DNA of 64,000 bases from Methanohalophilus sp. Lineage in GTDB: Archaea; Halobacteriota; Methanosarcinia; Methanosarcinales; Methanosarcinaceae. A program made the position numbers and the translations under genes. This document shows, in pieces, positions 29,115 to 54,912 of this stretch (position 1 is its first letter; every line of letters starts with the position of its first letter). A model generated the notes under the pieces. It searched no databases, had not been told where the DNA came from, and was given only the letters and a program-made list of their open reading frames with translations. Location of the stretch: positions 1 to 64,000 of the forward strand of contig NZ_JASGLW010000003.1 of the NCBI RefSeq assembly GCF_030156785.1, given 5' to 3'.

Positions 29115-29564
29115 TCATATGAAAGAAAATGCCATTTCAACAGCTTCTTCTGGGGTCTCTGCAGTATATGTGCCCTCTATCTCCCATTTAGATTTAAGGC
29201 AAACAACTTTTTTACCCATTTTCAGCGAGAGGGCGATTTCAGATAATGTCCCATATTCGCCGTCAATTGCAATGAGTACATCAGCCGATTGAGCAATTAT
29301 TGCATTCCTTGCATTGCTCATTGCAGTGGTTATCGCAATGTCAACATAATCGTTTGCATCATCAGGATTGTCCGTTGGAAGTATCCCAACTACAATCCCG
29401 CCTTCCAGCTTACATCCTCTGGAAACCGCTTCCATAACTCCTCCCAGACCGCCACAGAGCACAATCCCTTCCTATCTTGCAATTATGCGGCCGACATCTT
29501 CTGCAATAGATGAGATATATTCATCACATTTCCCCGCTCCTATAACTCCTATGTGCGGTTTCAT
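29115..29564 (-). CDS. LOG-like Rossmann protein (TIGR00725 type) with an in-frame TAG
   Basis: A 149-codon frame begins MKPHIGVIGAGKCDEYISSI, matching the conserved start of this family, and continues with LCGGLGGVMEAVSRG and GEYGTLSEIALSL, the nucleotide-binding motifs of LOG/lysine-decarboxylase-like proteins. Codon 31 (29472-29474) is TAG, between RIIAR and EGIVLCGG, where relatives have a variable polar residue such as Lys, Arg or Gln. No frameshift or other damage is seen, so TAG is probably read as pyrrolysine; a nonsense mutation is the alternative. Function of the family is unclear. Confidence 0.78.
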
Positions 29565-29583
29565 GATGGGATGTCCTTTTTGA

Positions 29584-41224: not shown

Positions 41225-42367
41225 ATGCCTTCTTCACGCTTAAAACGTGTGGGTGAGTCACCTACTATTCGTATTGCAAATATTGCAAATCAAATGAAAA
41301 GCGATGGGATTGACGTTATAAGCTTCAGCCTTGGTGAACCCGATTTTGATACACCTAAGCATATATCGGATGCTGCCATTGAAGCACTTTAGAATGGAGC
41401 TACTCATTATGCACCGTCTCCTGGCATTCCAAAGCTAAGAGAAGCTATTGCCAATAAACTGAGATCTGAAAACGGTCTTGATGCAATGGCTTCCGATATA
41501 CTTGTCACTCCCGGAGCAAAACAGGCAATTTTTGAAATACTGATGTCAGTACTGGATGACAATGATGAGGCTATTATTTTTGATCCTGCATGGGTTTCTT
41601 ATGATCCATGTATCAGATTTGCAGGTGCCAACTCGGTCTGGGTTCCTACAAACCCTGATAACGGATTTATGCCTGTGGATGTTGCTGACTACATTACGGA
41701 CAAAACACGCATTATTGTGGTAAACAGCCCGTGTAACCCCACAGGAGGAGTTTTTGGTAAGGAAGAACTCAAAAACATTGCCGATCTGGCAATTGACCAC
41801 GATCTTCTCGTACTTTCGGATGAAATCTATGAAAAAATTGTTTACGAACGTGAGCACCTCAGTATCGGTGCAATGGATGGTATGCAAGAGCGCACTATCA
41901 CTGTAAATGGTTTCTCCAAGGCCTATGCAATGACTGGCTGGAGGCTTGGTTATGTTCATGCAAATTCGGAACTGCTTCAGGGATTCAAGAAAATTCACTC
42001 CCATTCCGTAAGCAGTGCCACGACTTTCGCTCAATATGGAGGAGTTGCTGCACTGGAAGGATCACAGGAAGCAGTAACAGCAATGGTAGAAGAATTCCGG
42101 AAAAGACGCGATATCCTGATTGACGGATTGAATGCAATAGGGATCAAATGCAACAAACCTGAGGGTGCTTTTTACGCATTTGCAGACGTCAGTGAATATG
42201 GTGACGGAGATAGTGTTGCAGAAAAGCTGCTTTCAGAGGCCCATGTTGCTTTAACACCGGGGTCTGCATTTGGTGCAAGCGGCAAGAATTTTGTAAGAAT
42301 TTCTTATGCAACTTCACAGGAAAGAATAAGGGAAGCCCTGAAAAGGATTGAAGAATGTCTTCTTTAA
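41225..42367 (+). CDS. Class I/II aminotransferase (aspartate aminotransferase-like) with an in-frame TAG
   Basis: A 380-codon frame from ATG 41225 (MPSSRLKRVGESPTIRIANI) to TAA. FSLGEPDFDTP and THYAPSPGIPKLREAIA near the start, VNSPCNPTGG, SDEIYEKIVY, NGFSKAYAMTGWRLGY (PLP Lys) and FVRISYA near the end make a complete PLP aminotransferase. Codon 56 (41390-41392) is TAG, between AAIEAL and NGATHYAP, a surface-helix position that is variable and often polar in relatives. Everything on both sides is intact and in one frame, so UAG is probably translated (pyrrolysine). It starts 12 bp after ribH. Confidence 0.85.
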
Positions 42368-46047: not shown

Positions 46048-46542
46048 TTAAAACTCAATTATTTCAGCTTCATTGGTATCTGGATCCCAAAAGGCAAGTG
46101 TCCTTTTCCCACTAAGAACACCACAGCATTCACCTGGATTGATTACAAGAGTTCCACTGATTTGCTTAATTGACGGCTCGTGTGTATGACCTCGCACTAC
46201 AAGATCGAAATTCCCTGATTTTGCGAGGGAATCAATAATTTTTTCGTTGGTTCCGTGGAGAAGTGCGATTTTACGGTTTTCAATTTCAAGGGATGCAAAA
46301 TTCCCATATATAGTGGCTCCAAATACCTCAAACCAACTTTTAATAGTTATTTTATCGCCCTCGTTGTTCCCGAAAACCATGTACAATTCAGGCTCTAGTT
46401 TGCTAAATGCACGTGCCATGAAGGGGGAGACGAGGTCTCCTGCATGGAGCACAGCAGTGACTCCTTTATTATTGAGAATTTCAATTGCATCTTCTACTGC
46501 TTCAAGGTTATCGTGAGTGTCTGAGATTATACCGATCATCAT
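46048..46542 (-). CDS. YfcE/MJ0936-type metallophosphoesterase
   Basis: A 164-residue calcineurin-like phosphodiesterase. All metal motifs are present: SDTHDN, HAGDL, GNNEGD, LLHGTNE and RGHTHEP. Relatives hydrolyse phosphodiesters such as bis-p-nitrophenyl phosphate; the natural substrate is unknown. It overlaps the macro-domain gene by 4 bp (ATGA), so the two are an operon, possibly for ADP-ribose or nucleotide-linked phosphoester turnover. Confidence 0.93.
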
Positions 46543-47081
46543 TCTGCCTCGTTAGAATTGTTGTTTATTATTTGAGTGAGTGATTCCATGTACCTTAAAA
46601 AGGTTTCATTATTGTAACAAACTATTATTACTTTATCAATTTCATTGTTATGTAATAAGAAATTATGAATTGCTTCAACTGCAATCTTTGCAGCTCTTGG
46701 AATTGGAAAACGATATGCTCCAGTACTTATTGCTGGAAAAGCGATTGTCTTAATCCCATTCTCAACAGCAAGTGTGAGAGAGTTCAGATAACACCGCTCC
46801 AGTATTTCATCTTCCCTGTCTTTCCCGCCCTTCCAGACCGGTCCAACAGTATGAATTACCCATTTCGCAGGAAGATTATAACCCCTTGTTATCTTTGCAT
46901 CGCCGGTTTTACAACCTCCGAGGGTACGACATTCTTCAAGAAGCCCAGGTCCTGCAGCCCTGTGAATAGCACCATCAACCCCGCCACCCCCAAGAAGGGT
47001 GTTGTTTGCAGCATTAACAATTGCATCAACGTGCTGTTTAACAATGTCTCCCTAGATGATTTCTATTTTTGGATGGTCCAT
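46539..47081 (-). CDS. Macro-domain (ADP-ribose-binding) protein with an in-frame TAG
   Basis: A 180-codon frame, [29 protein letters not shown], then [36 protein letters not shown] and [12 protein letters not shown], a complete YmdB/Af1521-like macro domain that binds or hydrolyses ADP-ribose derivatives. TAG is codon 10 (47052-47054), exactly where relatives such as YmdB have Gln in VVQGDIT; CAG to TAG is one change. I read every codon to the TGA and found no other interruption. It precedes the phosphoesterase gene. Probable readthrough or recoding as pyrrolysine. Confidence 0.82.
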
Positions 47082-47123
47082 ACAAGACAGGTGATTCCTA
47101 TTCGGATTAATAAATATCGGGTA

Positions 47124-51309: not shown

Positions 51310-53451
51310 TTATTTGTCAACCAATTTAGCTTTTTCAATTACAAAGCGTGCGGTGTACTCATCCAGCTCTACAATCCGACTTTCCAGTATATGGATTCGC
51401 TTCCTGAAAAGAGGAGCATCCAGCACAAAACTCTCAAATTCCCCACCTTCGCCGGCAATGTTTAATCCTATCTTCTCATGCAGATTTGCCAGCTTTTCAA
51501 TGTCATATTCAGTTATTACTTTCCCTAACCAGCTACTGCTTAATCCATATGCTGCAATGCTGCTGAAGATAAACGAAAAACCATAATCAAGCAGTTCTCT
51601 CATCTCTTGTTCCTGATCCATCCCCCAAAGAGGAGAAAATACCTCGATTCCAAGTTCCCTGCAGATATTATCGATCCTTTCTTTCTGGTAGTTCGAGTGC
51701 AGGGCTCCAGTAATAATTCCCTTGATTCCGAAATCTTCCATTGCTTTTTGGATTGCATTTTTCAGGTCTTCAAGCTCTACTTCTTTTTCCCCTTTAGTAT
51801 TCCATTCAATAAGCGGGATTCCCATTGCATAGGCCTGCATCTGTGCAAGATTTATGTTAGGCGTGTGGAACATGTATGAATCGGGATTCTGGCTTCGAAC
51901 CGTAATGAGACACCTGATTGGATATCCCTGCTCATGCATTAGGTGAAGGGCATAATTACAGTCCTTTCCTGAACTAAAAAGCACACCTAATGGCGTTTTT
52001 TCTTTTTTTACCAGACTTTTAAGATATTCAGATTTAAGCTTAAATCCATGCTTTTTTGCCAGTTTCTCAATTGCCTTATCAGAGCGACTCCCATACTGTG
52101 CAGCCTTCTTCGGCCTTTGTGCAGTTTCAGTATCCATTCCAAGTTTCCCAGCTATCAGCCTTAAAATGTATTTGTTCTCATTATCATGCATTTTGCAGTT
52201 CTCAGGAAGATTCAGTGCATACTCCATAACTTTCCTGTCAAGAAACGGTGCCCTCAAAGAAATACCGCATTCTGAACCGATGAGTTCATCACGATAGGTA
52301 TCACGAATATGTATACCAAGCGTATCCTTCAGGCATTCTTCGGAAAGGTTTTCGACAAATTTGTGGCGACCATATCCACCGAACATTTCATCGGCTCCAC
52401 TTCCAGTAAGAAGGACTTTTATCCCATCTTCACTGGCTGCTTTTGTCGCTGCATAAAGGGCAAGGGCCACTCCAAGCATTGGAACAGATGTTGTTTCAAG
52501 CAGTGGGACGAGTTTTTTCAGATAGCTTTCCGCCTGTTCAAGTGAAATACTTACAACCTTTAATGGGACACCAAGTCTTTCGGTAACTTTTTTTGCATGT
52601 TCTATATCAGGAGCTTCAGTTTCTCCTTCAAAACCTGCTGTGTAACAGGTAAACCGATTCTCAGGTCGAATCTTCTTGCAGATGGCTGCAATAAGGGATG
52701 AATCCAATCCTCCTGAAAATAAAATTCCAAATGGTTCAACTGGTATACGTATTGCAGTAGTTTCTTCAAGCAATACTGATAATTCTTTGCCAGCAGTTTC
52801 ACAGTTCTTTTCTATCTTTTTTATTCCGAAATTGTGAGTCCTTTCAAATAAAGTACAGTTTTTTTCCTTTGAGTCATAAATGAGTATTTTCCGGGGATTT
52901 AGCTTTTTGGGATTTACATCCTCTGGGAGAAACTTTTTTTCGGAGGCTGCTGCAAATCCGATTTCAGAAGTGTACCAGATAGCTTTCAGTCCTTCAATAT
53001 CGCAGGCAATAAACACATAATTGCCAACTTTGCCTATTATTGTGTAAGCCCCTCTTACGTTCCTGAGTGCTTTGTCCAGATTTTCAGCAACACTTTTCCC
53101 GGTATAATCAATGTCCTGCAGACATTCACTAATTAATTTTTTCAGGACTGCATTGGATTTGTCAATGTTTAGCTTGTTTTGTTCCACCAACTCCTCGAGG
53201 TTATAGATGTCGCAATCTGCTACGATAATGTTTTCTGCAATCTCGCGCCCATATTTTGTACATGCAGAAGCTTCAATTATCATGCTTGTGCGACCGGGTA
53301 ATTCACATTCAATAATATTATCAAGTAACCTTCCTTTTTTTTCAGAGTATATCTGTATGTTAGCATGCCCTCGCTTATTCAATTCATCTATTATGCGTTC
53401 TAAAAAAGATTTTTGTAGGTTTTGATCGAAATATGCCGCAATTCTGCTCAT
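51310..53451 (-). CDS. Fusion of asparagine-synthetase-like and diphthine-ammonia-ligase-like proteins
   Basis: About 713 residues. Residues 1-220 resemble the Ntn glutaminase domain of AsnB, but the N-terminus is MSRIAAYFD where AsnB has the catalytic Cys2 (MCGIAGIF). Residues 230-490 form an AsnB-type PP-loop ATPase (LFSGGLDSSLIAAI; TGSGADEMFGGYGRH; APFLDRKVMEYALN). Residues 500-713 form a second PP-loop, Dph6-like (LFSSGKDCNYALHLM; TGALHSNYQKER; GEGGEFESFVLDAP), the enzyme finishing diphthamide on elongation factor 2. An earlier ATG at 53475 is possible. The fused synthetase half may supply or channel ammonia; substrate unknown. Confidence 0.88.
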   Translation of the reverse strand: MSRIAAYFDQNLQKSFLERIIDELNKRGHANIQIYSEKKGRLLDNIIECELPGRTSMIIEASACTKYGREIAENIIVADCDIYNLEELVEQNKLNIDKSNAVLKKLISECLQDIDYTGKSVAENLDKALRNVRGAYTIIGKVGNYVFIACDIEGLKAIWYTSEIGFAAASEKKFLPEDVNPKKLNPRKILIYDSKEKNCTLFERTHNFGIKKIEKNCETAGKELSVLLEETTAIRIPVEPFGILFSGGLDSSLIAAICKKIRPENRFTCYTAGFEGETEAPDIEHAKKVTERLGVPLKVVSISLEQAESYLKKLVPLLETTSVPMLGVALALYAATKAASEDGIKVLLTGSGADEMFGGYGRHKFVENLSEECLKDTLGIHIRDTYRDELIGSECGISLRAPFLDRKVMEYALNLPENCKMHDNENKYILRLIAGKLGMDTETAQRPKKAAQYGSRSDKAIEKLAKKHGFKLKSEYLKSLVKKEKTPLGVLFSSGKDCNYALHLMHEQGYPIRCLITVRSQNPDSYMFHTPNINLAQMQAYAMGIPLIEWNTKGEKEVELEDLKNAIQKAMEDFGIKGIITGALHSNYQKERIDNICRELGIEVFSPLWGMDQEQEMRELLDYGFSFIFSSIAAYGLSSSWLGKVITEYDIEKLANLHEKIGLNIAGEGGEFESFVLDAPLFRKRIHILESRIVELDEYTARFVIEKAKLVDK

Positions 53452-53613
53452 GATGGGGAAACTTCCGTGATGCAATATAGACTTGGATTTATTAATAGCT
53501 CAACTTGACAGCTTAAAAAGAAACAATAAGTATTTGAAGTTTAACGTTGACTATAAGTTTTATCATAATCATTATAACGGATTATATTAGTAGGCATTAG
53601 TGAGCGTCTTATC

Positions 53614-54240
53614 GTGTTATCTGAAGACAAAACTGCTGAAAAATGGTTCCAGACCGGATTTCACTCGGAATATCCTGAAGACAAAATCAAATATTACTCA
53701 TAGGTCATCGAAGGCCCAAGAGATCCGCTTCTATGGGACGATGAAGCAGTTGCCCTCGTATGGATGAACTAGGGTATTGCCCACTGTGATTTGGCTGAGT
53801 ATGAAAAAGCAATTGAATGCTTTGAAAAAGCCCTTACTCTTGATTCTGATAATCCCTTTATATGGTACAATAAAGGAATTGCTTACTCTAACCTTTGTGA
53901 TCTGGAATGTGCTCTTTCATGCTTCGAAGAAGTTCTTAAGCTTGATCCATCTTATGATAATGCATGGATTAACAAAGGCTTAATGCTTTGTATGCTTGGT
54001 AAGTATAGGGATGCGATAAAATGCTATGAAAATATTTCCTTTGATAGAGATTCCATGACCGATGAGAAAAAAGCTTTTGTGTGGAACAATAAAGGAATTG
54101 CCCATTCATATCTCGGGGAATATGAGGACGCAATCAAATGTTTTACCAAAGTCTTGCACATTGATCCTGACTACGACGACGCCAAATCAAACATGCAAAA
54201 AGTAATTCGAAAATTATCAGCCGAAGAAAGTGATAATTGA
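53614..54240 (+). CDS. Tetratricopeptide-repeat protein with two in-frame TAGs
   Basis: A 208-codon frame from GTG 53614. Segment AEKWFQTGFHSEYPEDKIKYYS is a first TPR-like unit, ended by TAG (codon 30, 53701-53703). VALVWMN-TAG-GIAHCDLAEYEKAIECFEKAL (codon 53, 53770-53772) is a second, followed by two or three perfect TPRs (NPFIWYNKGIAYSNL; DNAWINKGLMLCML; AFVWNNKGIAHSYL). In the later repeats the position of the second TAG is Lys (NKG). Both interruptions are TAG, one AAG change each, and no other damage exists. Probably a scaffold protein with pyrrolysine at these sites; a decayed N-terminus is the alternative. Confidence 0.75.
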
Positions 54241-54330: not shown

Positions 54331-54912
54331 ATTCTAGGTAATTTAAAAGATACCGTAAGAGTAGGAATTCTTCCTGTTGCTTCTAGGATTCCTTTATCTC
54401 CAAATGTCATAACTGTTCTTGGACTTGTTGTAAGTGCAATAGCAGCCCTGATGTTTGCACGTGGTGAATTGGTATTAGGTGGAATCCTGCTTTTGCTCAG
54501 TGGTATTTTTGATGTTTTAGATGGAGCAGTGGCAAGGGCTTCAAATTTTACCACACCGTTTGGGGGAGTACTTGATTCGGTTTGTGATCGCTATGCAGAT
54601 GCATTGATTTTTGCAGGAATTATTTACGGACTGGTATCAGGTAGTATAAAATCCAGCCTTTTTGGTGCAGATCTATGGCTCTGGTGCATATTTGCAATGA
54701 TTGGTTCATTTATGGTAAGCTACACACGCGCAAGGGCTGAAGCTGCCGGCTCCGGTGTTCTCAATGTAGGAATTGCCGAGCGTTCCGAACGCATGATTCT
54801 ACTGATGATTGGTGCATTCACAGGATTCTTGGGGCCTATTTTAGCATTTGTTGCTATTATTACCCACATAACTTTATTACAAAGGATTATCTCCGCAAAA
54901 GGTAGATTGTGA
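54331..54912 (+). CDS. CDP-alcohol phosphatidyltransferase, non-canonical start
   Basis: A membrane enzyme for archaeal phospholipid head-group transfer. The motif DVLDGAVARASNFTTPFGGVLDSVCD matches D-x2-DG-x2-AR-x8-G-x3-D-x3-D. The first ATG in frame (54451) would lose PLSPNVITVLGLVVSAIAAL, the conserved first segment and membrane helix. Reading back, the frame is open to 54313 but has no ATG, GTG or TTG; GAGGGGTG at 54319-54326 precedes an ATT at 54331 by a normal spacing. Either ATT is the start or a small error/frameshift removed an upstream ATG. About five membrane helices. Confidence 0.82.
   Translation: MLGNLKDTVRVGILPVASRIPLSPNVITVLGLVVSAIAALMFARGELVLGGILLLLSGIFDVLDGAVARASNFTTPFGGVLDSVCDRYADALIFAGIIYGLVSGSIKSSLFGADLWLWCIFAMIGSFMVSYTRARAEAAGSGVLNVGIAERSERMILLMIGAFTGFLGPILAFVAIITHITLLQRIISAKGRL

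Follow-up and report, generated by a model that had tools for sequence, protein, structure and literature searches.

The gene at positions 53614 to 54240 of the window (the whole stretch of 64,000 nucleotides of Methanohalophilus sp. contig NZ_JASGLW010000003.1 that was analysed) very probably encodes one 208-residue TPR scaffold in which codons 30 and 53, both TAG, would be translated as pyrrolysine (Pyl), the 22nd amino acid, the TAGs having been gained by near-neutral drift. This reading was made from sequence comparisons and is held with high confidence. Pyl decoding of in-frame UAG is a known phenomenon; the twist is that related species carry UAGs elsewhere in the same gene. In the literature searched, Pyl had not been described in this TPR family. 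G000 denotes the source genome, G033 and G034 are congeners, and Methanococcoides is the sister genus.

53614..54240, forward strand: TPR protein gene with two in-frame TAGs, 208 codons, GTG start, TGA stop at 54238-54240 (translation, profile and ortholog alignment)
53701..53703, forward strand: TAG codon 30 (TAG30), inside model helix 21-33, present in the G000 assembly only
53770..53772, forward strand: TAG codon 53 (TAG53), inside model helix 43-59 (the first helix of TPR 1), common to G033
53510..53613, forward strand: presumed promoter region, a stretch conserved in G033
54337..54912, forward strand: CDP-alcohol phosphatidyltransferase, archaetidylinositol phosphate synthase-like, the next gene in the conserved order
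51310..53475, reverse strand: divergent neighbour, an asparagine synthase-like and diphthine-ammonia ligase (Dph6) protein

Translation of the frame confirmed the initial annotation, in which two TAGs had been placed within the N-terminal 53 codons with no other stop or shift; TAG30 and TAG53 are the only internal stops. With TAG read as sense, the 208-residue product matched Pfam TPR_1 in four stretches (E = 1.2e-38) on profile search and also matched consensus TPR proteins in the PDB. There was no above-cut-off match in NCBIfam naming a specific function, and the matches in a plasmid collection were distant TPR proteins only. The fold suggests that the protein is a binding scaffold. Under the standard code, the sole open reading frame (ORF) in this frame is 53791-54240, and an ordinary gene caller would therefore drop the first 59 codons. 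Within the presumed promoter region, a TATA-like stretch, TTATAT (53582-53587), lies approximately 30 bases 5' of the GTG. The transcript is possibly leaderless.

An AlphaFold model, built on a 30-sequence alignment with the TAG positions modelled as Lys, was all-helical with a mean pLDDT of 93.7. The N-terminal part comprised helices 8-17, 21-33 and 43-59, and residues 8-59 were mostly well-predicted helices. The model thus places the TAG-bearing N-terminal part within the TPR solenoid.

Orthologs were sought in 112 genomes from the family and found in several genera, and G000 was aligned with 29 orthologs. Loss of the first 53 codons in all relatives, the outcome that the initial annotation had set against its own interpretation, was not seen. 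The N-terminal part was retained in all 29, both flanks of TAG30 and TAG53 were co-linear with them, and the read-through proposed for the two codons is supported by these orthologs. Between G000 and G033, the dN/dS was 0.055 over codons 3-52 (20 synonymous changes at 28.8 sites and 12 nonsynonymous changes at 121.2 sites) and 0.082 after TAG53, with a dS above 1 and synonymous sites near saturation. These values indicate that codons 3-52 are under purifying selection, as is the downstream part.

G033, an independent assembly from the same genus with 82% identity, has TAG at position 53 and Met at position 30, and the alignment indicates that TAG53 predates the split between G000 and G033. Six other congeners have Arg at 30 and Lys at 53, with TAG at the positions equivalent to 93 and 96. 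At least one TAG is therefore present in all eight genomes of the genus, at 30 and 53, at 53 alone, or at 93 and 96. The Methanococcoides genome G022 has a TAG, aligned to residue 26, where its close relatives have Glu. The orthologs in the other Methanococcoides and in all sampled g10 genomes are without TAG. The presence of TAG thus recurs and its position does not, which probably reflects tolerance; the recurrence in three lineages is slightly above the expectation from drift alone.

The residues tallied at the two columns (TAG being written as K in the tally) were diverse. Among the 29 orthologs, column 30 held Ala in 11 (Methanococcoides), Leu in 10 (g10), Arg in 6 (the six congeners), Met in 1 (G033) and Lys in 1 (genome G003). 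With Met, Arg, Ala, Leu and Lys all present at codon 30 in relatives, no Lys-specific origin can be claimed for TAG30. Column 53 held Lys in 17 and Thr in 11 of the 28 orthologs with a standard residue, Thr being seen in Methanococcoides. For this codon, Lys had been predicted from the internal repeats of the protein (MN-TAG-G against YNKG, INKG and NNKG); the repeat comparison was correct and agrees with the ortholog column. The proposed change from AAG to TAG was sustained in part: an ancestral Lys is supported by the orthologs, but the AAG codon itself is not, as Lys is encoded by AAA in G034 and the residue is Thr in Methanococcoides. An AAG-to-TAG origin of TAG53 may be regarded as plausible.

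The gene order of TPR gene, archaetidylinositol phosphate synthase, purS and purQ is kept in G033, the other congeners, G003 and Methanococcoides. G033, G003 and most Methanococcoides also have the asparagine synthase/Dph6 gene upstream; the G034 stretch that was compared gave no match to it. The g10 orthologs lie in a different gene neighbourhood. A scan of a genome contig collection with the TPR gene returned relatives from Methanococcoides and none from Methanohalophilus. In G034, the archaetidylinositol phosphate synthase-like gene (C1:1346876-1347523) carries a TAG near its C-terminus, at codon 196 of 215.

The source genome (1.55 Mb, 94.6% complete) contains a single cluster of tRNA-Pyl (pylT, CUA anticodon) followed by pylS, pylB, pylC and pylD, of which pylS and pylB were confirmed by profile and pylC and pylD were named from cluster position and sequence. 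Its mtmB gene has one in-frame TAG and its mttB gene has a TAG at residue 334. The organism is a pyrrolysine-encoding, methylamine-using methylotrophic methanogen. As the genome encodes pylTSBCD, the residue inserted at codons 30 and 53 should be Pyl. Pyl has been detected by mass spectrometry in the MttB of Methanohalophilus portucalensis (PMC4928046). A PYLIS-like stem-loop after the UAG is dispensable for Pyl insertion (PMC9499178), and for Pyl-encoding archaea, insertion has been proposed to proceed in competition with release factor (PMC9499178, PMC2933860). In the proposed mechanism, point mutations at tolerant positions would have created the TAGs, and tRNA-Pyl(CUA) would decode codons 30 and 53 as pyrrolysine in competition with release factor. 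The TAGs would persist with the Pyl machinery present and TAG nearly emptied of its stop function, and part-time termination at TAG30 or TAG53 is possible. Two eRF1-domain proteins, with frames of 346 and 420 aa, were noted in G000, one presumably the release factor and the other a possible Pelota.

Stop codon usage was analysed in 291 kb of G000, corresponding to 19% of the genome. The 235 gene ends sampled from standard-code calls comprised 120 TAA, 110 TGA and 5 TAG, against 17.2% TAG expected from base composition (binomial P ~1e-13). Three of the five TAG-ended calls were interior TAGs of read-through genes (mtmB, mttB and an HtrA-like protease), and the remaining two belonged to pylB and to a DUF5616 protein whose extension is 7 codons long. 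The same depletion was observed in the congeners (5/370 in G033 and 9/359 in G034). Reported TAG stop frequencies are ~4-5% in Methanosarcina and 1.6% in 'Ca. Methanomethylophilus alvus' (PMC4153887). The TAG that ends pylB, a gene of Pyl biosynthesis (L035:3362-3364), lies one base upstream of the pylC ATG. This TAG is conserved in Methanohalophilus, Methanococcoides, G003 and genomes resembling Methanosarcina, whereas the g10 genomes sampled lack it. Where TAG stops are otherwise avoided, feedback control is one possible explanation for it and a mere overlap constraint another.

When genes were read with TAG as sense, an interior TAG was present in 11 of the 232 sampled. In this set, the TAGs of pylB and the DUF5616 gene are near-terminal, and those of a minus-strand gene (L047) and an ABC gene (L040) are in the leader and may lie before the true start. 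About seven cases are firm, and ~3-5% of the sampled genes have any in-frame TAG. Besides the TPR gene, genes with an in-frame TAG include the following, of which the first three are in the window.

41249-42367, forward strand: class I/II aminotransferase, TAG at 41390 (codon 48), Tyr in relatives
46542-47084, reverse strand: macro-domain protein, TAG at 47054 (codon 10), Lys in relatives
29118-29567, reverse strand: SLOG cluster-4 (LDcluster4) protein, TAG at 29474 (codon 31), Ser or Arg in aligned relatives
L039:867-1988, reverse strand: HtrA/trypsin-like protease with PDZ domain, TAG at 1634 (codon 118)

Among the relatives compared, the aminotransferase, macro-domain and SLOG TAGs were private to G000. 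As drift predicts, TAG replaces several different residues (Tyr, Lys, Ser/Arg).

It is very improbable that the true start lies after TAG53, for example at the TTG at 53791, with the upstream codons a decayed remnant. The standard code does list only the ORF 53791-54240; however, codons 3-52 are subject to strong purifying selection between G000 and G033, are present in all aligned orthologs and form confident helices. A start at this TTG (codon 60) would cut off the first helix of TPR 1, and an in-frame ATG is absent between codons 53 and 124. We consider it equally hard to credit that the gene is a pseudogene in progress and the TAGs disabling mutations. The small genome (1.55 Mb) and the TAG private to the G000 assembly would suit such decay, but the frame contains no frameshift, TAA or TGA, TAG is hardly used as a stop in G000, and TAG53 was already present before G000 and G033 diverged, since when dS has exceeded 1 with a low dN/dS. 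Both the downstream start and the pseudogene were ruled out by the dN/dS and the orthologs. The residue tolerance at the TAG sites would permit TAG to be decoded not by tRNA-Pyl but by a conventional tRNA for Lys, Gln or Tyr, either near-cognate or a suppressor; nevertheless, with a dedicated tRNA-Pyl (CUA) and PylS present, such decoding is most unlikely. The scan for other CUA tRNAs covered selected stretches of G000.

Selection for the presence of TAG, with its position free, would give a different meaning to the recurrence. Full-length TPR protein would then be made only when Pyl-tRNA is plentiful, and the gene would sense pyrrolysine or methylamine supply. All eight Methanohalophilus genomes are tagged, as is one Methanococcoides at a Glu codon, while an in-frame TAG occurs in only ~3-5% of sampled genes. 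Independent lineages among the eight genomes nevertheless number only two, the gene has no TAG in the other Methanococcoides or in any g10 genome sampled, and TPR surfaces tolerate substitution. With TAGs in 3-5% of genes, a second independent hit would not be very surprising, and it was for its TAGs that this gene was selected for analysis; such gating is therefore given a low probability only. In the same way, we regard it as improbable that UAG content rather than position has been selected, with lineages having swapped sets of UAG sites and the amount of TPR protein reporting pyrrolysine supply. Translation of both TAGs as Pyl in a single TPR protein, with near-neutral gain of the codons, is the preferred reading.

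A close parallel in a single gene is Thg1 (tRNA-His guanylyltransferase) of Methanosarcina acetivorans, in which, in the passages of PMC2933860 and PMC3639795 that cite Heinemann et al. 2009, the Pyl is ascribed to neutral evolution. On these passages, Thg1 is likewise a non-methyltransferase protein with an in-frame TAG in a Pyl-encoding methanogen; in contrast, the TPR gene is short and has two TAGs, one common to two species, with congeners having theirs at other positions. 'Ca. Methanomethylophilus alvus' has many unrelated genes with in-frame TAG, some with homologs without TAG, and 1.6% TAG stops (Borrel et al. 2014, PMC4153887). It resembles G000 in having unrelated genes with in-frame TAG and very few TAG stops, but belongs to a different archaeal order, and its gene list does not include this TPR family, although it does include a Sel1-domain protein (PMC4153887). 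The methyltransferases MtmB, MtbB and MttB would share with the TPR gene the machinery that decodes UAG as Pyl, and mtmB and mttB copies are present in G000; their UAG position is conserved and catalytic, whereas that of the TPR gene is neither. A 2025 report in Science, on an archaeal genetic code with all TAG codons as pyrrolysine, is said to propose that some archaea read all TAGs as Pyl, with support from proteomics.

Because gene callers truncate such genes at TAG, the N-terminus goes missing and proteins in archaea that encode Pyl are wrongly annotated. A protein in which several Pyl residues occupy movable sites and have no catalytic part would provide a clean test of UAG as a simple sense codon in these cells, and the TPR protein would also allow the effect of a non-catalytic Pyl on a protein to be tested.
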